DNA from: Catillopecten margaritatus gill symbiont | GTDB lineage: Bacteria; Pseudomonadota; Gammaproteobacteria; PS1; Pseudothioglobaceae | Reading direction: 5' to 3' | Length of the DNA stretch: 64,000 bases | Assembly (NCBI GenBank): GCA_037956075.1 | Contig: CP138327.1 | Location: 434,001 to 498,000 of the forward strand | Part shown: positions 24,993 to 35,158 of the stretch, one piece after another | How positions within the stretch are numbered: position 1 is the stretch's first letter | Layout of the letters: the number at the start of each line of letters is the position of its first letter | Translations under genes and position numbers: made by a program | The notes under the pieces: model-generated | The model's database searches: none | Seen by the model: only the letters and a program-made list of their open reading frames with translations | Told to the model about the DNA's origin: nothing

Positions 24993-24998
24993 TATAAT
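24993..24998 (+). promoter_or_regulatory. -10 element of the nitrate/nitrite operon
   Basis: A perfect TATAAT lies 7-10 bases before the predicted 5' end of the leader RNA. The -35 region (around TAGTCAA, 24974-24980) is poor, which is compatible with an activator-dependent promoter. Confidence 0.65.
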
Positions 24999-25006
24999 AT
25001 CTGGAC

Positions 25007-25047
25007 ATTGTCCAACGATGGGCAATAAAATAAACATAGGCGTTTAT
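25007..25047 (+). promoter_or_regulatory. two-hairpin ANTAR antiterminator target in the nirB leader
   Basis: Hairpin P1: ATTGTCC (25007-25013), hexaloop AACGAT (25014-25019), GGGCAAT (25020-25026). Hairpin P2: ATAAAC (25030-25035), hexaloop ATAGGC (25036-25041), GTTTAT (25042-25047). Both loops have A at position 1 and G at position 4, the rule for RNAs bound by ANTAR proteins such as NasR and NasT. The 3' arm of P2 is the 5' arm of the following terminator, so P2 and terminator exclude each other. Confidence 0.8.
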
Positions 25048-25087
25048 CTGGTTTCATTTTTTGAAAACTGGATAAGCGTTTTTTTTT
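25041..25087 (+). terminator. leader terminator 1 (controlled by the ANTAR hairpins)
   Basis: CGTTTATCTGGTTT (25041-25054) pairs with AAACTGGATAAGCG (25065-25078), mostly Watson-Crick with some G-U pairs, followed by nine T (25079-25087). Its 5' arm overlaps hairpin P2. Confidence 0.85.
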
Positions 25088-25120
25088 GGTCGGTTTCCAG
25101 AGGACTGATGAAGGTATTGG

Positions 25121-25169
25121 AGCCAGTTGAGGGGTTGTTGTAATGACGATTTTCGACTGGCTTTTTTTG
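25121..25169 (+). terminator. leader terminator 2
   Basis: AGCCAGTTGA (25121-25130) pairs with TCGACTGGCT (25153-25162), a 10-bp stem with one G-U, followed by a run of seven T. It lies between terminator 1 and the nirB start. I could not find a second pair of AxxGxx hairpins for it. Confidence 0.75.
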
Positions 25170-25190: not shown

Positions 25191-27569
25191 ATGAAAAAAT
25201 TGGTGGTAGTAGGTTCAGGAATGAGTGCAATGAAAGTGGTTGATGAGATGTTGAAAATTGACCCAACGATGTATCAGATAACGATTATTGGGGCGGAGAC
25301 GGTGTTGCCTTATAACAGAATTATGTTGTCGCCAGTTTTGTCAGGTGAGAAAACTTTTGATGAAATTAAGACGCATGATGAGGGGTATTTTGCACAGAAT
25401 AATATCGGTTTTAAGCCAGGGTGCAAGGTAACGGCGGTGGACAGAAAAGCCAAGAATGTGACTTTGATGGATGATAAGGGTGATACAGAGATACTAGATT
25501 ACAACCGTTTGGTGTTGTGCACGGGTTCGACGCCGTTTATTTTGCCGTTGCCAGGTAAGGAATTAGAAGGGGTGGTGTCGTTTAGAGATATTTACGATGT
25601 TGAATATATGAAAGCCAATGCAAAGCAGGGCAAGAAGGTGGCAGTGATTGGCACAGGATTATTGGGGCTTGAGGCGGCGAATGGGCTGAATGAGTTGGGC
25701 TTTAATGTTACGGTAATTGGCAATATGGATTCGATTATGAATATGCAATTAGACCCTTCTTCGGGTAATTTATTGCAGAAAGTATTGGAAGAAAAGAACA
25801 TTAAATTTAAGTTAGGTGCGATTACGACGACGATTAATGGCAGTGATAAAGTTGAGTCACTTACCTTTGAAGATGGCTCGACAATGGATACCGATATGGT
25901 GGTAATGTCAGTGGGCATTGTGCCAAATGATGCTTTGGCAAAAGGCATTGGCTTGCAAACGGACAGGGGGATTATTGTCAGCGATACGATGATGACTTCG
26001 GACCCTGCGATTTATTCAGTCGGTGAATGTATTAAGCACCGTGGAATGTCGTATGGTTTAGTGGCGCCTTTGTTTGAGCAGGCGCGTGTTTGTGCTGAGC
26101 AGGTGTGTGAGGTGTCGCACCGTATGTACACGGGGTCGGATATTTCTACTAAGTTGAAAGTGTCGGGTGTGGATGTGTTTTCAGCGGGTGAGTTTGATAA
26201 TGCCGATGATGAAATAATGTGTTCAAAAGACCATGCTTTAAATACACGCAAACGCCTCTCTATTCGCGATAATAAGTTGGTGGGTGCGGTGTTGTTTGGC
26301 GATTCTACCGATGGATTATTTTATTTTGATTTGATTAAAAAACAAACGGATATTACCGAGTTGCGTAAGACTTTGTTGTTTGGCGATATTGGCGTAGATG
26401 CGGCGAGTGCGGGTGCAGGTGGCGTTGAAAAAATGGCAGATGATGAGCAAGTTTGTGGTTGTATGGGTGTGACTAAAGGCGATATTGTTAATGCCGTTGC
26501 GGGTGGTTGTGATTCGTTTGAAGCGGTGCAGGAATCCACAGGTTGTGCGACAGGGTGTGGAGGTTGTGGTTCGGTGGCGAAGCAGATATTTAGTTTTGTT
26601 TCGGGTGCGGAATTAGTGACCAAAGAGACGCTGTGTGATTGCACCGAGCATTCAACAGAAGAAGTGCGTGCCTATATTAGAGCGTTGGATAGTGTTAAAA
26701 CCATTGATGAAGTGCGCACGGAAATGGGCTTTACAAATTCTTGTGAGGGCTGTGGCGCGGCGATTAATTATTATTTATCTTCGCAGTTTAATGATGAATA
26801 TGTGCATAACGATGCCGAACGACCGCATAATGAGATGATGCACGCAAATAAGCAACGAGACGGCACTTATTCTATCGTGCCACAGATGCAAGGCGGTTTG
26901 ACAACGCCTAACGAACTCAAATCATTAGCAGAAATTGCGGTTAAATATGAAGTGCCGACGGTGAAAGTAACGGGCGGGCAGCGCATTGATTTATTGGGTA
27001 TTCCTAAGGAAAATCTGAATGATATGTGGGACGAGATTGCCGAGGCTGGAATGGAGTCGGGTTATGCGTATGGCAAGGCGACAAGAACTTGTAAGTCATG
27101 CGTTGGCACTGAGCATTGTATGATGGGAACGCAGGATTCTATGGGTTTGTCGGTGAAGATGGAAGATGCCGTTTGGTCGCACTTTATGCCGCATAAATTC
27201 AAGATGGGTGTGAGTGGCTGTCCTCGAAACTGTGCGGAAGCAACGATTAAAGATTTTGGTGTGATTTGTACCGAGAAAGGCTATGAAATTCATGTCGCAG
27301 GTGCGTGTGGTATTCGCACTAAAGCGTGTTTAAAAGACCGTTTCTTTGAGTCAGAAGCCGATGTAGTTGAATATTTAAAGGCATTTGTGCAGTTATATCG
27401 TGTTGAAGCAAACTATTTAGAGCGAGTCATGCATTTTGAGGAAAGAGTCGGTTTGGATTATATTCAGTCGCGATTAAACACCCCTGAAAAGATTAAAAAA
27501 TGGGCAGATGCTTTGCCTAAAACCATTAAAAATCCGTGGGTAACTACCGACCATAGGCAATCAGCATAA
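25191..27569 (+). CDS. nirB: assimilatory nitrite reductase large subunit (NAD(P)H)
   Basis: NirB reduces nitrite to ammonium. The 792-residue protein has an N-terminal FAD/NAD region (VVVGSGMSAMKVV, 5-17; second dinucleotide site VAVIGTGLLGLE near 149), two BFD-like [2Fe-2S] segments (CGCMGVTKGDIV and GCATGCGGCG, about 423-464; CDCTEH near 482), and the sirohaem/[4Fe-4S] domain with CKSCVG...HC near 635 and CPRNC near 676. No nirD follows directly. Expression should depend on the ANTAR leader. It is the first gene of the nitrate assimilation operon. Confidence 0.93.
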   Translation: MKKLVVVGSGMSAMKVVDEMLKIDPTMYQITIIGAETVLPYNRIMLSPVLSGEKTFDEIKTHDEGYFAQNNIGFKPGCKVTAVDRKAKNVTLMDDKGDTEILDYNRLVLCTGSTPFILPLPGKELEGVVSFRDIYDVEYMKANAKQGKKVAVIGTGLLGLEAANGLNELGFNVTVIGNMDSIMNMQLDPSSGNLLQKVLEEKNIKFKLGAITTTINGSDKVESLTFEDGSTMDTDMVVMSVGIVPNDALAKGIGLQTDRGIIVSDTMMTSDPAIYSVGECIKHRGMSYGLVAPLFEQARVCAEQVCEVSHRMYTGSDISTKLKVSGVDVFSAGEFDNADDEIMCSKDHALNTRKRLSIRDNKLVGAVLFGDSTDGLFYFDLIKKQTDITELRKTLLFGDIGVDAASAGAGGVEKMADDEQVCGCMGVTKGDIVNAVAGGCDSFEAVQESTGCATGCGGCGSVAKQIFSFVSGAELVTKETLCDCTEHSTEEVRAYIRALDSVKTIDEVRTEMGFTNSCEGCGAAINYYLSSQFNDEYVHNDAERPHNEMMHANKQRDGTYSIVPQMQGGLTTPNELKSLAEIAVKYEVPTVKVTGGQRIDLLGIPKENLNDMWDEIAEAGMESGYAYGKATRTCKSCVGTEHCMMGTQDSMGLSVKMEDAVWSHFMPHKFKMGVSGCPRNCAEATIKDFGVICTEKGYEIHVAGACGIRTKACLKDRFFESEADVVEYLKAFVQLYRVEANYLERVMHFEERVGLDYIQSRLNTPEKIKKWADALPKTIKNPWVTTDHRQSA

Positions 27570-27584
27570 AGGAGGTCTGATTTT

Positions 27585-29045
27585 ATGGAAGACAAATTAA
27601 CTCTGTTTTCATTTAAGGGCAAATATCGGATATTACATCTGACTTGGTTTGCTTTTTTTATGTCATTTGTGGTGTGGCTCAGCCTTGGGCCGATGATGCC
27701 GTTTATTCGTGAAGCGTTAGGATTAAGCGAGCAACAAGCCAAAGTTTTGCTGATTTTGAATGTGGCAATGACAATCCCAGCACGCATTGTGGTGGGGATG
27801 TTGGTGGATAAATTCGGTCCAAAAATTATGTTCACTTCGATTTTGGTATTGGGCGGATTGGTCTCTATTGCGTTTAGTTGGATGCAAACTTATGAGCAAT
27901 TAGCGTTAATGCGATTTTTGTCGGGCTTTATTGGTGCGGGTTTTGTGGTCGGTATTCGGATGATTTCGGAGTGGTTCCCTGCAAAACAAACAGGCGTTGC
28001 ACAAGGTATTTATGGCGGTTGGGGTAACTTTGGTTCTGCGGGTGCGGCGATGACTTTGCCGTTTATTGCCAGTAGTTTTGGTGGGGCTGATGGGTGGCGT
28101 TATGCGATTACGGCGGCGAGTTTGGCGGCAATTGCTTACGGAATTTTCTATTATTTCAATGTGAGCAATACGCCAAAGGGTTCCACTTATTTCAAGCCAA
28201 AAAAATCAGGGGCAATGGAAGTCAGTAGTTACGGCGATTTGGCGTTATATATTTTGATGAATGTGCCTTTGTATCTCGCTTTGTCGCTAATGACTTGGAA
28301 GTTGGGCGATGAAAATATGATTACCACAACGGTAGAGTTCACAGTGTTTGCGATATTAGCAGGGTTGTTTGTTGCACAAGCATGGAAAACTTGGCAGGTG
28401 AATATCGGACATTTAAAACAAGGCGTGCCGAAGCAACATCAGTATAAATTTAAGCAAGTAGCTATTTTAAACTGGGCATATTTTGTCACTTTTGGCACAG
28501 AATTGGCAGTGGTTTCAGTGTTGGCTATGTTTTATGTCGATTGGTTTGCTTTGGACAAAATCACGGCAGCTCTGTTGGCAGGGATTTATCCATTTATCAA
28601 TTTATTTGCCCGCCCAGGTGGAGGCTGGTTGAGTGATAAATTTGGTCGGAAGATTGTTTTAATGATTACTTTTGCGGGCGTTACTTTGAGTTTCTTGGCA
28701 TTAGGCACAGTTGAAAAATCATGGTCTATTTATTCCGTGATTGGATTAACGATTGCAGGCGGTATCTTTTCCAAGGCAGGCTCAGGTGCGATTTTTGCAA
28801 TGGTGCCGTTGATTCAAAGACGACTCACAGGGCAGATTGCAGGGATGACAGGGGCATTTGGCAATGTCGGTGCGGTGATGTTTTTAACCGTAAATTCTTT
28901 GGTGGATTATGACCAATTCTTTATGTTAATCAGTATTATGAGCGGTATTGTATTGGTGCTGATTATCGTGATTTTGAAAGAACCGAAAGGGCATATGACA
29001 GAGATTTTAGACGACGGCACAGTGGAAATAATTAAGTTGAATTAA
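27585..29045 (+). CDS. nasA: nitrate/nitrite transporter, NarK/NasA-type MFS
   Basis: The 486-residue protein is a twelve-helix major-facilitator transporter. Nitrate signature segments are visible: GGWGNFGSAGAAMTLPF near 146 and GAFGNVGAVMFLT near 425, both with the Gly/Asn pattern of NarK proteins. It starts 15 bp after nirB with the near-perfect ribosome site AAAGGAGGT. It would import nitrate for the reductase encoded downstream. Confidence 0.93.
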   Translation: MEDKLTLFSFKGKYRILHLTWFAFFMSFVVWLSLGPMMPFIREALGLSEQQAKVLLILNVAMTIPARIVVGMLVDKFGPKIMFTSILVLGGLVSIAFSWMQTYEQLALMRFLSGFIGAGFVVGIRMISEWFPAKQTGVAQGIYGGWGNFGSAGAAMTLPFIASSFGGADGWRYAITAASLAAIAYGIFYYFNVSNTPKGSTYFKPKKSGAMEVSSYGDLALYILMNVPLYLALSLMTWKLGDENMITTTVEFTVFAILAGLFVAQAWKTWQVNIGHLKQGVPKQHQYKFKQVAILNWAYFVTFGTELAVVSVLAMFYVDWFALDKITAALLAGIYPFINLFARPGGGWLSDKFGRKIVLMITFAGVTLSFLALGTVEKSWSIYSVIGLTIAGGIFSKAGSGAIFAMVPLIQRRLTGQIAGMTGAFGNVGAVMFLTVNSLVDYDQFFMLISIMSGIVLVLIIVILKEPKGHMTEILDDGTVEIIKLN

Positions 29046-29049
29046 AAAA

Positions 29050-30747
29050 ATGAAAGCACTAAAACTCACCATTAATTCTCACTCTATCGCAGGTATCAAA
29101 CCTGAAAATCAAGATAATTGTGCCTATTACATACCCGATGACCAAGCGTTAGAATACAAGGGCATCACCAGCGTAATGGCGGATGGCGTCAGTGCATCGG
29201 CGAGGGCAAAAGAAGCCAGTAGTTGTTGTGTCAAGAGTTTTTTGAGTGATTATTATTCCACGCCCGATTCTTGGAGCACCGAGCATTCAGCGGTAAAAGT
29301 AATTTCGGCGTTGAATAATTGGCTATATTCGCAATCTGTGCGCGATGGTGAAGAATCTTCAATGTTGTCAACACTCAGTGTTTTGATTGCAAAATCAAAT
29401 ACGGTGCATATTTTCCATGTCGGTGATTCACGGATTTATCGCTATCGTAGCGGCGTTTTAGAGCAATTGACCAAAGACCATGTGCTGAATGTTAACAAGC
29501 AAAAAGCGTATTTATCAAGGGCAATTGGCTTTGATTTAAAAGTCAGCGTTGATTATCAAACCTTTGATATGCACCCGCAGGATTTATTTTTATTGACCAC
29601 GGATGGCGTGCATGATGTTTTGGACAAAGACACTTTACAAGGGTATTTAAGTCAAAAAATGTCTTGTGAAGCGTTAGTAAAAAAGGCGTTGGAAGCAGGT
29701 TCTGAGGATAATATTTCAGCGATGATTTGTCAGGTTGAGCAATTGCCTGAGAAGAATTTGGATGAGGCTTTTGATGAATTAACCCAAAAACCCGTCCCCC
29801 CTGATTTAGAAAAAGGCATGAAAATTAACGGTTTTGAGATAGACTCGCTGTTGGTGTCTAGTGTCAAAATTCAACTCTATTTGGCAAAAAATATTGATAC
29901 AGGTGAGTTGGTTGCACTCAAAACCCCATCGGTTAATTTTGAAGACAATGCCCAGTATTTGCAGTATTTTATGTATGAACAATGGGTTGGGCAACGCATT
30001 CAAAGCCCAAATGTGGTTAAAATTCATAAGTCAAATGCACACGATAAATTCCTTGCTTATGCGATGGAATATATCAAAGGACAGACGCTACGAGAGTGGA
30101 TGGATGAAAATCCATCGCCAGATATGGGTGTGGTTTTGAGTATCGTTAAGCAGATTATTAGCGGTATTCGTGCGTTTCACAGGCAAGAAATGTTGCATTG
30201 TGATTTGAAGCCAGAAAACATTATGATTGACGAAATAGGGCAAGTAAAACTGATTGATTTTGGCGCAGCACGCATCGCAGGTGTGGCAGAATTACTCAGC
30301 CCGATTGACATCAGTCATAATCAAGGCTCGCAAGGCTACACTGCCCCCGAAGTGATTTTACAAAATGAAGTATCGCAAGCATCAGACCAGTTTAGTTTGG
30401 GTGCGATTGTGTATGAAATGTTGGCAGGGTGTGTGCCTTATGAGGATAAATTAGACAGAAATTTGAGCGATAAAAAACTGGATAAAATGACCTATGATTC
30501 CATTTTAAAACACGACCCTCATGTACCGATTTGGATTGATGGGGCAGTGCAAAAAGCCTGTTGTTTAAATAAGGCAGAACGCTACGAAGTATTGAGTGAA
30601 TTTTTGTATGATTTATCACATCCAAATCAGGCGTTATTCACCGCAAAAGAAGGGGTAAAACCTGAGGTATTGTTGAAAAAATATCGTTTATTAATTGCTT
30701 TGTCATTTGCACTTAATATTGTATTGTTATTATTACTGGTTCGTTAG
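29050..30747 (+). CDS. PP2C phosphatase-Ser/Thr protein kinase fusion, membrane-anchored
   Basis: The first 240 residues form a PP2C-type phosphatase (SHSIAGIKPENQDN, VMADGVS, VGDSRIYRY, LLTTDGVHD, GSEDNISAMI). Residues of about 260-530 form a eukaryotic-like kinase with HCDLKPENIM, LIDFGAARI and GYTAPEV. One C-terminal membrane helix (LLIALSFALNIVLLLLLVR) anchors it. Genes of this type recur next to nitrate transporters and assimilatory nitrate reductases in proteobacteria, so control of nitrate uptake is a reasonable inference; the substrate is unknown. Confidence 0.9.
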   Translation: MKALKLTINSHSIAGIKPENQDNCAYYIPDDQALEYKGITSVMADGVSASARAKEASSCCVKSFLSDYYSTPDSWSTEHSAVKVISALNNWLYSQSVRDGEESSMLSTLSVLIAKSNTVHIFHVGDSRIYRYRSGVLEQLTKDHVLNVNKQKAYLSRAIGFDLKVSVDYQTFDMHPQDLFLLTTDGVHDVLDKDTLQGYLSQKMSCEALVKKALEAGSEDNISAMICQVEQLPEKNLDEAFDELTQKPVPPDLEKGMKINGFEIDSLLVSSVKIQLYLAKNIDTGELVALKTPSVNFEDNAQYLQYFMYEQWVGQRIQSPNVVKIHKSNAHDKFLAYAMEYIKGQTLREWMDENPSPDMGVVLSIVKQIISGIRAFHRQEMLHCDLKPENIMIDEIGQVKLIDFGAARIAGVAELLSPIDISHNQGSQGYTAPEVILQNEVSQASDQFSLGAIVYEMLAGCVPYEDKLDRNLSDKKLDKMTYDSILKHDPHVPIWIDGAVQKACCLNKAERYEVLSEFLYDLSHPNQALFTAKEGVKPEVLLKKYRLLIALSFALNIVLLLLLVR

Positions 30748-30755
30748 GAGCGTAT

Positions 30756-32960
30756 ATGTTATTTGGACGAGGGCAAAAAAACCCGATAAAAATCACCGAT
30801 AAAAAAATTAAAGAATGGAAATATGCCACTTGTGGATATTGTTCTACAGGTTGCTCTATTGAAGTTGGCTTTAATGAAGAAGGCAAGGCTGTTTCCTCTC
30901 GTGGCGTGGCAGGTGCGGATGTTAATCGAGGAAAATTGTGCCTTAAAGGCATTATGGAGCACGAATTATTTGACTCAGTAGGGCGGGGCGATAAGCCACT
31001 CATTCGTAACCATTGGCACGAAGATTTTGCTCAAACTAATTGGGATGAGGCTTTAGATGCCAGCGCCAAAGGCTTGAAAGCAGTGCAAGAAAAATACGGA
31101 CGCGATTCAATCGCCATCATTTCTACGGGGCAAATGTTAACGGAAGAATTTTATACCTTGGGTAAACTCACCCGTGGATTGATTGGCACCAATAATTATG
31201 ACGGCAATACCACGCTGTGCATGGCATCAGCCGTATCGGGTTACAAACGCTCGTTTGGCTCCGACGGTCCACCTGGGTGTTATGAGGATTTTGAGCATAC
31301 AGATTGCTTGATTGCTTGGGGTTCAAACTTACCAGAGCAACACCCGATTATTTATTGGCGCATGAAAGAAGCGCAAGAAAAACGCAAATTTCCACTGATT
31401 GTGGTTGACCCACGGGTAACGATGTTGGCACAAAATGCTGATATTCATCTGCCGATTACACCAGGAACGGATGTGGTGCTGATGAATGCGTTGATGTATG
31501 TGATTTTTGATGAAAATTTGCAAGATATGCATTATATCGAAGCAAATACCAACGGTTTTGAAGAACTTAAAGCAGAAACGGATAAGTATGACCCAGTAAC
31601 GGCAAGCAAAATTTGCGGCATTGATGAAGATACTATCCGTGTTGTGGCACGAATTTTTGCCAATGCAGGGGCAGCAATGCAGATTTGGACGATGGGCATT
31701 AACCAGTCCACACACGGCTCCGATGGGGTGGTTGGCATTAATAATTTAGCGTTAATTACGGGTAATATTGGCAAACCAGGTGGCACCAGTTTGTCCATTA
31801 CAGGGCAGTGTAATGCAATGGGGACACGCGAATGGTCAAGTTGTTCGGGTTTGCCAAACCATCGTTTTTTGGAAAATGAAGGCGACCGTGAGGACATTGC
31901 AAAATTTTGGAACATTGATGTGGATTTTTTGCCGAAAAAGCGCGGTATGTTTCAAACAGATATTTATCATGCGATTGAAACAGGTGAAATTAAAGGGCTA
32001 TGGCTGATTGCGACCAATCCACTTTCCTCGTTACCAAACACAGCACGGGTGCGTAAAGCCATGGAAAAATTAGAATTTTGCGTGGTGCAAGATTGCTATG
32101 CTGACTCGGAAAGTAACCAATATGCCAATGTATTTTTACCCGCAGGCACTTGGGCGGAAAAATCGGGCGTAATGACCAATACTGAACGCAGAGTGAATTT
32201 GGTCAAGCCTATTATTGAGCCGATTGGTGATTCTAAGCCTGATTTTTGGATTTTTAATGAAATGGCAAAACGCTTTAATACCGAAGGCAAAGTGAATTTC
32301 CCCGACACTTCAGAAGCGGTGTTTGAAGAAATGAAAGGGCTTTCAAAAGGGCGTTTGTGCGATATTTCGGGAATGAGTTACGACAAAATTGAAAAAAATA
32401 ACGGCATCCAATGGCCTTATACCGAGGAAAATGTCAAAAATTCAGAACCACCTCCACAGGGCGGTAAGCGTATTTATACCGAAACTGCCACTTTTCGATA
32501 TGCAGACGGCAAAGCAAAATTAATCCCTTTGCCGTTCGTTGATAACAACGAAGTGCCTGATGAAAAATACCCGATTTGGTTGAATACAGGGCGTTTGATT
32601 GAGCATTGGCATGGTCGCACCAAGACGGGAAAAATTGCCAATAATAACAAGTTTAGCCCAATTCCATTTATTGAAATTAACCCAGATTTAGCATTTGATA
32701 TGGACATTGAAAACGGGCATTATGTGCGTTTGGTGTCGCGTCGTTCGGATGCGATTGTGATGGCAAAATTCACCAATAGGGTGGGTAAAAATATGGTGTT
32801 TTTGCCGTTCCATTTTCATGATTGTGCCAATCGTCTAACTTTGGGATTATTAGACCCACACTCTCGCCAACCCGCTTACAAGCAACAAGCGATTAGAATT
32901 GAAAAAATTAAAGACCAAAAATCAGCCGCCAAACTCAGCATGGAAATGCGACAATTTTAG
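30756..32960 (+). CDS. nasC: assimilatory nitrate reductase catalytic subunit (Mo-bisMGD)
   Basis: The 734-residue enzyme binds a [4Fe-4S] cluster through CGYCSTGC...GKLCLKG (about 25-65) and Mo-bisMGD. The segment TLCMASAVSGYKRSFG with a Cys as probable Mo ligand and GSDGPPGCYEDF is typical of NasA/NarB nitrate reductases. No Tat signal is visible, so it should be cytoplasmic. Unlike many NasC proteins it has no extra C-terminal [2Fe-2S] domain; electrons probably arrive through the FeS/membrane protein encoded next. Confidence 0.92.
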   Translation: MLFGRGQKNPIKITDKKIKEWKYATCGYCSTGCSIEVGFNEEGKAVSSRGVAGADVNRGKLCLKGIMEHELFDSVGRGDKPLIRNHWHEDFAQTNWDEALDASAKGLKAVQEKYGRDSIAIISTGQMLTEEFYTLGKLTRGLIGTNNYDGNTTLCMASAVSGYKRSFGSDGPPGCYEDFEHTDCLIAWGSNLPEQHPIIYWRMKEAQEKRKFPLIVVDPRVTMLAQNADIHLPITPGTDVVLMNALMYVIFDENLQDMHYIEANTNGFEELKAETDKYDPVTASKICGIDEDTIRVVARIFANAGAAMQIWTMGINQSTHGSDGVVGINNLALITGNIGKPGGTSLSITGQCNAMGTREWSSCSGLPNHRFLENEGDREDIAKFWNIDVDFLPKKRGMFQTDIYHAIETGEIKGLWLIATNPLSSLPNTARVRKAMEKLEFCVVQDCYADSESNQYANVFLPAGTWAEKSGVMTNTERRVNLVKPIIEPIGDSKPDFWIFNEMAKRFNTEGKVNFPDTSEAVFEEMKGLSKGRLCDISGMSYDKIEKNNGIQWPYTEENVKNSEPPPQGGKRIYTETATFRYADGKAKLIPLPFVDNNEVPDEKYPIWLNTGRLIEHWHGRTKTGKIANNNKFSPIPFIEINPDLAFDMDIENGHYVRLVSRRSDAIVMAKFTNRVGKNMVFLPFHFHDCANRLTLGLLDPHSRQPAYKQQAIRIEKIKDQKSAAKLSMEMRQF

Positions 32961-32971
32961 AGGATAAAAAA

Positions 32972-34819
32972 ATGTTTAATGTAAGAAGTGATGAGCCAAA
33001 ATATGCGTTTTTGTGGGACAAAGAGACCCAAAGTGAAAACTGTTATGGCGACAAAATTGAAACTGTTACTAAGGAAGATATTCGCCGAGAAGTGAGCTTA
33101 AATATTAATGATAGCGGCGAAATTGGCGAAAATCCAAATCGTTACAAACAACACGGATTTTATTTTAACGCCGATAACTGCATCGGTTGCCACGCTTGCG
33201 AATCTGCCTGTAGTGAAAAAAACGATGTGCCCTCGCATTTAGCCTTTCGCTCAGTCGGTTTTGTTGAGGGTGGCACTTACCCAGATTACCAACGCCTTAA
33301 CATCTCTATGGCGTGTAATCATTGCGACGACCCAGTCTGTCTTAAAGGTTGCCCAACTCGTGCTTACACCAAATTTGCAGAATACGGCGCAGTATTGCAA
33401 GACCCTGATATTTGTTTTGGTTGTGGTTATTGCACTTGGGTTTGCCCTTATAACGCCCCGCAACTCGACCCTGTGAAAGGGCAGGTAAGCAAATGCAATA
33501 TGTGCGTGGATAGATTAGAAGTGGGTTTAAAGCCCGCCTGTGTCGCTGCTTGTTTGGGCAATGCACTCGATTTTGGCGTGGTTGAAAGTGTGCCTGAAAA
33601 TCGTGAACAAGCCAAAACTGCCATCCCAGGTTTCCCCACCACCGACATCACTCACCCCAATATTCGTTTTCAACAAACCAAAAACACACAACGAGATATG
33701 GTGCGACCTGACGGTATGCCAGTGAAGTATCACAAGCAAGATGATGGTAATTTTAAATCAACATTAGACGACAAAAAACAATCAACTCAAAAGAAATGGG
33801 GCTTAAAAAAACTCTTGCATTCACACGAAAATGCCCACGCAATTTTTACCCTCTTCGCACAAGCCGTGATGGGTGCAACGCTTTGGCTAATGGCAATGGA
33901 TGTTTTTAATATCATCAAAATACCCAGCATTTTTATGGTGAGCGTATTGCTGATTTTATTAGGCTACGGCTTGTTTAAACTCAATATGCACCTCGGCAAA
34001 CCACAATTTTTCTACCGTGGTTTTTACAACCTCAAACACTCCCCAGTAAGTCGTGAAATTGCAGGCGTTAGTTTGTTTTTTGGCGGTTTAATGATGATAC
34101 TTGCCGTGCAATTATTATCCTTAGATTTGTTATTACCCCTAGTTTACGCCATCACTTTCTTCGGCTTCGCATTAGGCTCATATTATATGATGAAACTCTA
34201 CCTCATCCCCGCCCGCCCGTTTTGGAATCATTGGCAAACAGGCACCGCATTCTACGGCACAATATTGAGTTTAGGCAGTCTGTTATTCGCTCTATTATTG
34301 TCAATTTTTGCTATCCCTTATAGCATACTGACCAACATTGCCATGGTCGCAATAATCGGTTTAATGATTGAAGTCGTCGGTTTAATTGCCCACAAAAAAG
34401 CCAATCAAGAAACAGGTGAAAGCCAAGCATCAGCCTTCATACAAAGCACCACCTTTGGCAAAACAGAAAGACTGCGCTACACCTTGCTCGGCATCAATAT
34501 ATTGCTAATGCTAGCATTGATGCGCTACCCAAGCCTTTGGTTATTAATACTCAGTTTTGTAAGCATCAGCGTATCCGTCTATTTAGGCAGAATTTTATTC
34601 TACGCCGTCGTCATCCCAACCACAATGCCTGGTGCCTTCTTTTGGAAAAATGACCAATTCAAACAACACGCCATCGAAACTGGACTCTCCGATATGCCTC
34701 AAATGGGCGTTATGCCAGAGCGTCATCATAAATTTGATGTCAGCGCCTTAATCAAAGTAATCAAAAACACCAACATTAAAGCAATATCCACTCAATTTAA
34801 ATCAATCATCAAAGGATAA
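32972..34819 (+). CDS. FeS electron-transfer / membrane-anchor fusion (DmsB-DmsC-like)
   Basis: The N-terminal 240 residues carry four cysteine clusters of a DmsB-type ferredoxin (CIGCHACESAC, CNHCDDPVC, CFGCGYCTWVC, CNMCVDRL). After a linker with charged residues the C-terminal part (about 290-600) has about eight membrane helices like DmsC, a quinol-binding anchor. The two are usually separate proteins. It starts 12 bp after the nitrate reductase gene, so it probably delivers electrons from the quinol pool to that enzyme; this partnership is inferred from the operon. Confidence 0.88.
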   Translation: MFNVRSDEPKYAFLWDKETQSENCYGDKIETVTKEDIRREVSLNINDSGEIGENPNRYKQHGFYFNADNCIGCHACESACSEKNDVPSHLAFRSVGFVEGGTYPDYQRLNISMACNHCDDPVCLKGCPTRAYTKFAEYGAVLQDPDICFGCGYCTWVCPYNAPQLDPVKGQVSKCNMCVDRLEVGLKPACVAACLGNALDFGVVESVPENREQAKTAIPGFPTTDITHPNIRFQQTKNTQRDMVRPDGMPVKYHKQDDGNFKSTLDDKKQSTQKKWGLKKLLHSHENAHAIFTLFAQAVMGATLWLMAMDVFNIIKIPSIFMVSVLLILLGYGLFKLNMHLGKPQFFYRGFYNLKHSPVSREIAGVSLFFGGLMMILAVQLLSLDLLLPLVYAITFFGFALGSYYMMKLYLIPARPFWNHWQTGTAFYGTILSLGSLLFALLLSIFAIPYSILTNIAMVAIIGLMIEVVGLIAHKKANQETGESQASAFIQSTTFGKTERLRYTLLGINILLMLALMRYPSLWLLILSFVSISVSVYLGRILFYAVVIPTTMPGAFFWKNDQFKQHAIETGLSDMPQMGVMPERHHKFDVSALIKVIKNTNIKAISTQFKSIIKG

Positions 34820-34822
34820 AAA

Positions 34823-35158
34823 ATGGAAATAGACGGCAACAACATTGAATTAGACAGCGAAGGATATTTAACCGAACCCGACCAATGGACACCCAACACA
34901 GCCCTTGAATTGGCAAAATTAGAAAACCTAGAATTAACCGACGAACACTGGATGATACTCAATTTAATGCGCAATTTCTACAACGAAGAGGGCGTTATCC
35001 CCGATGTTCGCCACATTTTCAAACAAATGGGCGTAGATTTAAACATCAGCAAAAAAGAAGCCAAAGCCAAACTATTCACCTTATTCCCCTACGGCTATGT
35101 GCAACAAGCCTGCAAAATCTCAGGCATGCGTCGCCCTAGAGGTTGGAGTACGGGTTGA
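34823..35158 (+). CDS. DsrC/TusE-family protein lacking the penultimate cysteine
   Basis: This 111-residue protein has the DsrC/TusE fold markers (GYLTEPDQWTPNTALELA; LTDEHWMILNLMRNFY). DsrC has two C-terminal cysteines and TusE has the penultimate one. Here the inner Cys is kept (QQACKISG) but the chain continues MRRPRGWSTG, with Trp where the penultimate Cys would be. Such a protein cannot form the intramolecular disulfide of DsrC. It starts 3 bp after the FeS/membrane gene, so it belongs to the nitrate operon; a regulatory or sulfur-carrier role is unproven. Confidence 0.85.
   Translation: MEIDGNNIELDSEGYLTEPDQWTPNTALELAKLENLELTDEHWMILNLMRNFYNEEGVIPDVRHIFKQMGVDLNISKKEAKAKLFTLFPYGYVQQACKISGMRRPRGWSTG

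Follow-up and report, generated by a model that had tools for sequence, protein, structure and literature searches.

ANTAR proteins act by transcription antitermination (PMC3369931), and the target RNA described for NasR, EutV and AmiR consists of two neighbouring hairpins, P1 and P2, of at least three pairs each, with six-nucleotide loops carrying A1 and G4, of which P2 overlaps a terminator (Ramesh et al., 2012, PMC3369931). Leaders with ANTAR elements are known in other bacteria upstream of P-II, ammonium transporter and nitrite reductase genes, and the 13 attenuators over six transcription units in Desulfotomaculum acetoxidans provide a precedent for several attenuators per unit (PMC3369931). 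NasR of Klebsiella senses nitrate by its N-terminal NIT domain (PMC7496416), while EutV of Enterococcus faecalis is phosphorylated by EutW. Nitrate and nitrite genes are also the target of the NasS-NasT pair known from Paracoccus, Azotobacter and Bradyrhizobium (PMC3795266, PMC6759348), and in Paracoccus the two proteins form a complex that nitrate takes apart (PMC3795266).

The window analyzed here is a stretch of 64 kb (G000:C1:434001-498000) from the genome of a marine, sulfur-oxidising bacterium of the Thioglobus/SUP05 clade, a genome that consists of a single contig of 1.54 Mb. The closest named relatives of its NirB are found in Bathymodiolus thiotrophic symbionts and Candidatus Thioglobus. 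Oxygen-minimum zones harbour abundant SUP05/Thioglobus bacteria, which are abundant as symbionts of mussels and clams too. In the literature searched, no mention of ANTAR was found among papers naming SUP05. A sequence-only reading of the window had proposed that an ANTAR-type antiterminator of the NasR/NasT architecture controls nitrate/nitrite assimilation. The analysis reported here makes it very probable, as judged from sequence, that the nirB leader works as an ANTAR-type attenuator of transcription and that a NasT-like protein would open this site and one upstream of glnK-amtB together. The mechanism would be the known one of ANTAR antitermination, without the standard nitrate-sensing NasS-NasT pair; the core of the earlier claim holds up, with corrections regarding NasS and the breadth of the regulon.

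Gene Context

All window features with coordinates described below lie on the forward strand. The leader precedes nirB, encoding the nitrite reductase large subunit (25191..27569; NCBIfam TIGR02374, 754 bits against a cut-off of 578), which is followed by genes for a NarK-family nitrate/nitrite transporter (27585..29045; NCBIfam TIGR00886, 304 bits, slightly below the cut-off), a fused PP2C phosphatase-Ser/Thr kinase (29050..30747; Pfam PF13672 and PF00069), a NasA/Fdh-type molybdopterin oxidoreductase that is probably the assimilatory nitrate reductase (30756..32960; operon context and sub-cut-off matches to NCBIfam NF047855 and TIGR01591), a 4Fe-4S protein fused to a DmsC-like membrane anchor (32972..34819; Pfam PF13247 and PF04976) and, as the final gene of the run, a DsrC/TusE-family protein (34823..35158; NCBIfam TIGR03342, Pfam PF04358). 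Within this nitrate/nitrite operon, the phosphatase-kinase fusion is flanked by narK and the nitrate reductase gene, and the last two genes (32972-35158) form an electron-transfer set that is unusual for an assimilatory reductase.

Architecture of the First Module

The leader promoter has a −10 box, TATAAT (24993..24998), which is present at the same spot 5' of P1 in nearly all relatives. Downstream of it, the first ANTAR hairpin P1 (25007..25026), ATTGTCC[AACGAT]GGGCAAT with a stem of 7 bp, is separated by the linker AAA (25027..25029) from the second hairpin P2 (25030..25047), ATAAAC[ATAGGC]GTTTAT with a stem of 6 bp, and both loops have A1 and G4. The 3' arm of P2 is at the same time the 5' arm of the intrinsic terminator T1 (25040..25087), which comprises a hairpin (25040-25079) and a run of nine T (25079-25087). 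Base by base, this agrees with the promoter box, the two hairpins, the three-nucleotide linker and the P2-sharing terminator that had been read from the sequence before.

Folding energies were −10.8 kcal/mol for P1 and P2 together (z −3.4) and −18.0 kcal/mol for T1 (z −6.7); for the whole leader z was −5.0, every shuffle being less stable. An architecture scanner, whose rule was two A1/G4 hexaloop hairpins plus an overlapping terminator, returned P1 and P2 of the nirB leader as its single match in the window, while 60 dinucleotide shuffles gave 0.067 matches per window and no match of equal strength. As in the target RNAs of NasR, EutV and AmiR (PMC3369931), the A1/G4 hexaloop hairpins have at least three pairs, P2 overlaps the terminator and the element precedes nitrogen genes. 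The nirB leader differs from them in its linker, which measures 3 nt by maximal stems and 5 nt if the inner four pairs of P2 alone are counted; in most glnK leaders the linker has 7-9 nt. Induction of E. faecalis eutP fell drastically once its linker had been cut to 3 nt (PMC3369931).

A Second Module Upstream of nirB

The second intrinsic terminator upstream of nirB that the sequence-only reading had noticed is T2 (25119..25168), with a hairpin at 25119-25164 and a T run at 25162-25168, ahead of the nirB ATG at 25191. It folds with −22.1 kcal/mol (z −5.9), and 13 of its 16 pairs have double-sided changes. What that reading had missed is that the 5' arm of T2 overlaps an additional A1/G4 hairpin, P4 (25113..25124), GGT[ATTGGA]GCC. 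Such a P4 overlapping T2 is present in 45 of the 47 leaders compared, which makes the attenuators double, and 18 of the 47 have a clear P3 with an A1/G4 hexaloop and at least four pairs. Elsewhere P3 often has the five-nucleotide loop AAGRT. At the P3 site of the window (25088..25112), where relatives have a hairpin with a loop AAAGRN or AAGRT, the sequence is degenerate and no A1/G4 loop was found in this copy. Both P3 and P4 are complete in the glnK leader of the same genome. The doubled attenuator is thus the rule in the family, and the window copy retains half of its second module; the described NasR/EutV/AmiR target RNAs are unlike this family, in which attenuators are nearly always doubled within one leader.

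Conservation and Mutually Exclusive Pairing

In an alignment of 24 nirB leaders that used no motif rule, the P1 loop shows invariant columns at A2 and G4 and the P4 loop at A1 and G4, and A1 of P1 as well as A1 and G4 of P2 were conserved in more than 90%; the A1/G4 hairpins are therefore kept in the leaders of relatives, as the sequence-only reading had implied. Column conservation in 22 glnK leaders, likewise aligned without a motif rule, was much like that of the nirB set. Across the 47 leaders, pairing amounted to 90% for P1 (37-65% in slid registers), 96% for P2 (30-48%) and 99% for P4 (1-53%), and all six standard pair types occur at pair 4 of P1. The loop counts of this comparison hold partly by construction, since an A1/G4 pattern served to locate the loops. 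RNAalifold recovered T1 of module 1 and just two pairs of P1 because the length of P1 varies.

Where changes fall on the bases that P2 and T1 have in common (L118, L123, and L026), pairing of T1 was retained in 3/3 and pairing of P2 in 2/3 cases, and where they fall on the strand shared by P4 and T2, both pairings were retained in 7/7, counts that refer to changes among related sequences and not to independent events. These patterns of change are marks of an antiterminator and a terminator that exclude each other.

They also bear on the explanation that T1 and T2 function without ANTAR, with a leader-peptide attenuator or the 3' ends of a small RNA as examples. In the window, a 41-codon ATG frame begins at the loop of P1, and two strong terminators would yield a short stable RNA. 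However, this explanation leaves the conservation of A1 and G4 and the exclusion between P2 and T1 without a role, and we consider it very improbable. The leader peptide itself was rejected as a candidate: its frame is not conserved, the frames of relatives differ in length and sequence or are missing, and the glnK leader of the same genome has no ATG at this position.

More serious, if still on the unlikely side, is the view that module 1 alone is the ANTAR element and that P4 reflects chance conservation at the foot of T2, which is compatible with the preferred explanation as far as module 1 is concerned. It would account for the missing P3 in the window and for the minority of leaders with a clear A1/G4 P3, as well as for a P4 stem that has just three to six pairs across leaders. 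Against it speak the invariant positions A1 and G4 in the loop of P4, the pairing of P4 compared to slid registers, the retention of P4 together with T2 upon changes of their shared strand, and the complete P3 and P4 of the glnK leader. An ANTAR function of both modules remains the reading that we prefer.

Some leaders of relatives show further peculiarities. In a relative with a reduced genome (G033, 1.03 Mb), the glnK leader (L106:6696-6828) seems to be decaying, with P4 and an arm of T2 damaged; unlike this leader, the nirB leader of G033 is retained. In Candidatus Thiodubiliella endoseptemdiera, an insert of ~160 bp between T2 and nirB (L018:2790-3000) has inverted ends like GAGACCTTTGCATAAATA and is MITE-like, and pieces of this motif are found near other leaders (L002, L007, and L026). 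A module-1 copy of the nirB type located ~400 bases upstream of an aminotransferase-like gene (G003:C339:3702-3783; L133) has no complete second module and is probably a displaced leader.

The ANTAR Protein and Its Missing Partners

No ANTAR gene lies in the window, and the NasT-like protein that had been predicted to be encoded elsewhere is there: the genome has a single ANTAR gene, at G000:C1:286250-286834 (PF03861, 71.8 bits), so that the presence of an ANTAR protein in the same genome, which belongs to the description of such target RNAs (PMC3369931), comes down to one gene. Its product of 194 amino acids carries an N-terminal receiver (Pfam PF00072, Response_reg) followed by the ANTAR domain, resembles the solved structures 1S8N and 6WSH, and is 46% identical to the NasT of G057, the gene of which adjoins a NasS-like gene. 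The ANTAR gene is situated downstream of glnK-amtB. Autoregulation by way of the glnK-amtB transcript was considered and is not supported, as a terminator and a TATAAT-like box separate amtB from the ANTAR gene. Orthologues exist in 33 of 37 family genomes including its own, many of which have no complete nirB, and the protein is ~79% identical or more in the family genomes that lack nirB; this conservation indicates that its central role is not nitrate control.

The search for NasT and NasS in the genome, proposed earlier as a check, was positive for a NasT-like protein and negative for NasS: no NasS-type homologue (PF13379) was found in the genome, whose completeness is 99.99%; the same profile was positive in 12 of 14 control genomes, and the 36 family relatives yielded two marginal matches and nothing more. 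The phospho-acceptor position of the receiver is an Asp in the NasT of G057 and an Asn in the aligned family orthologues. A search for a kinase of the HisKA_2 (EutW) type (PF07568) gave no match. For NtrC, partial matches far under the cut-off were all that the genome contained, and for sigma-54 five identical short stretches, all under the cut-off; GlnD is present.

These findings allow two further explanations to be weighed. According to the first, an overlooked nitrate-binding NasS keeps NasT inactive until nitrate releases it. The protein is NasT-like, the operon is one for nitrate and nitrite, and the Paracoccus pair works in this manner. This is quite improbable here, given that NasS was not found in a nearly complete genome with a profile that was positive in most controls, that it is nearly missing from the relatives too, and that the protein persists in genomes without nirB. 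According to the second, NasS has been lost and the protein is always active and senses nothing here, the leader being constitutively read through and the hairpins being a relic. Loss of NasS does lead to constitutive nas expression in Paracoccus (PMC3795266), and both the Asn at the phospho-acceptor position and the failure to find a HisKA_2 kinase fit this explanation. We regard it as rather unlikely, since RNA and protein are under strong constraint family-wide and the attenuators are doubled and occur on other nitrogen genes in relatives, unlike a relic.

Compared to the described systems, the protein thus shares with NasS-NasT the NasT-type receiver-ANTAR organization and a nitrate/nitrite gene target, and differs in that NasS is absent, the ANTAR gene follows amtB, the phospho-Asp is replaced by Asn and the regulon is headed by glnK-amtB. 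With NasR of Klebsiella (PMC7496416) it has in common the ANTAR domain and the nitrate assimilation leader, the N-terminal part being a receiver instead of a NIT domain. Its closeness to EutVW of E. faecalis lies in a similarity to the PDB 6WSH response regulator over almost the whole protein, but no HisKA_2 kinase to act as EutW was found and the acceptor is Asn.

Regulon

Comparison of the nirB leader with Rfam at gathering and permissive thresholds matched no family, and weak matches to a snoRNA and to rliG were rejected as chance. A covariance model of module 1, built from the leaders including both sites of the genome itself, reached significance at exactly two places in the genome, ahead of glnK-amtB (E 8.9e-16) and of nirB (1.3e-12), the next best site having an E-value of 0.93. 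The covariance scan that the sequence-only reading had named as a check was accordingly negative with Rfam and positive with this model, and its weighty part is the lack of a third significant site, both sites being in the training set. The better-scoring site is glnK-amtB and not nirB, by which the nirB operon is upheld as a target of the element but not as its sole target. Within the order, represented here by this family alone, module-1 matches were found in 72 of 83 genomes and in 48 of the 49 good ones. Putative further targets in relatives, called from the first open frame downstream without a profile check, are narK (L131 and L141), glnK-like genes (L135-L137), serC (L139 and L149), a UrtA-type ABC substrate-binding protein (L140) and porins (L132 and L134). 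The theme of the regulon is nitrogen, not nitrate alone, and, compared to a standard nitrate-sensing NasS-NasT pair, a regulon for general nitrogen status is the more plausible guess.

Variant Leaders in Distant Relatives

In four nirB leaders of distant relatives (L019:267-361, L020:200-263, L022:2920-3001, and L023:2480-2550), what comes after the A1/G4 hairpins is no terminator but a hairpin over the ribosome-binding site, the terminator being replaced by GTCCTTTTAA...TTAAAAGGA or a similar sequence. In L020 and L023 the hairpin of this type forms nine pairs across the ribosome-binding site; the fold is weak in L022. From these four leaders and their folding, a switch from transcription to translation control, acting as release, is possible in distant nirB leaders. 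In actinobacteria, ANTAR RNA controls translation as repression (PMC8164766).

Proposed Mechanism and Significance

What was obtained here directly comprises the structures and their conservation, the pairings that exclude each other, the two sites and the one cognate protein. Binding by ANTAR, antitermination and nitrogen status as the signal, rather than nitrate sensed by NasS, are what we infer from them. RNA polymerase would start just past 24998, and T1 and then T2 would fold by default and stop transcription before nirB. The single NasT-like protein (286250-286834) most likely binds P1 and P2, holds P2 and thereby blocks T1, and P4 probably does at T2 what P2 does at T1. The same protein would open the complete double attenuator upstream of glnK-amtB, by which one regulator would couple ammonium uptake and PII with the use of nitrate and nitrite. 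PII/GlnK is a candidate participant in signaling because its operon has the best site. Standing against this explanation are the 3-nt linker (5 nt by the inner pairs of P2), a length at which eutP was poorly induced, the P3 of the window without an A1/G4 loop and, as regards control by nitrate, the persistence of the ANTAR protein in family genomes that lack nirB.

Going further, and tentatively, the NasT-like protein, having lost NasS and the phospho-acceptor, may have become the general nitrogen-status regulator of the Thioglobaceae, one that acts by RNA attenuation and replaces NtrBC/sigma-54, perhaps via GlnK, with the hairpins of L020 and L023 freeing the ribosome-binding site; we hold this as a conjecture somewhat more apt to fail than to stand. 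The family-wide loss of NasS poses the question which signal is sensed by a NasT without NasS. In the Thioglobus/SUP05 bacteria, control of both ammonium uptake and nitrate use appears to rest with a single small RNA-binding protein and an RNA motif that recurs.
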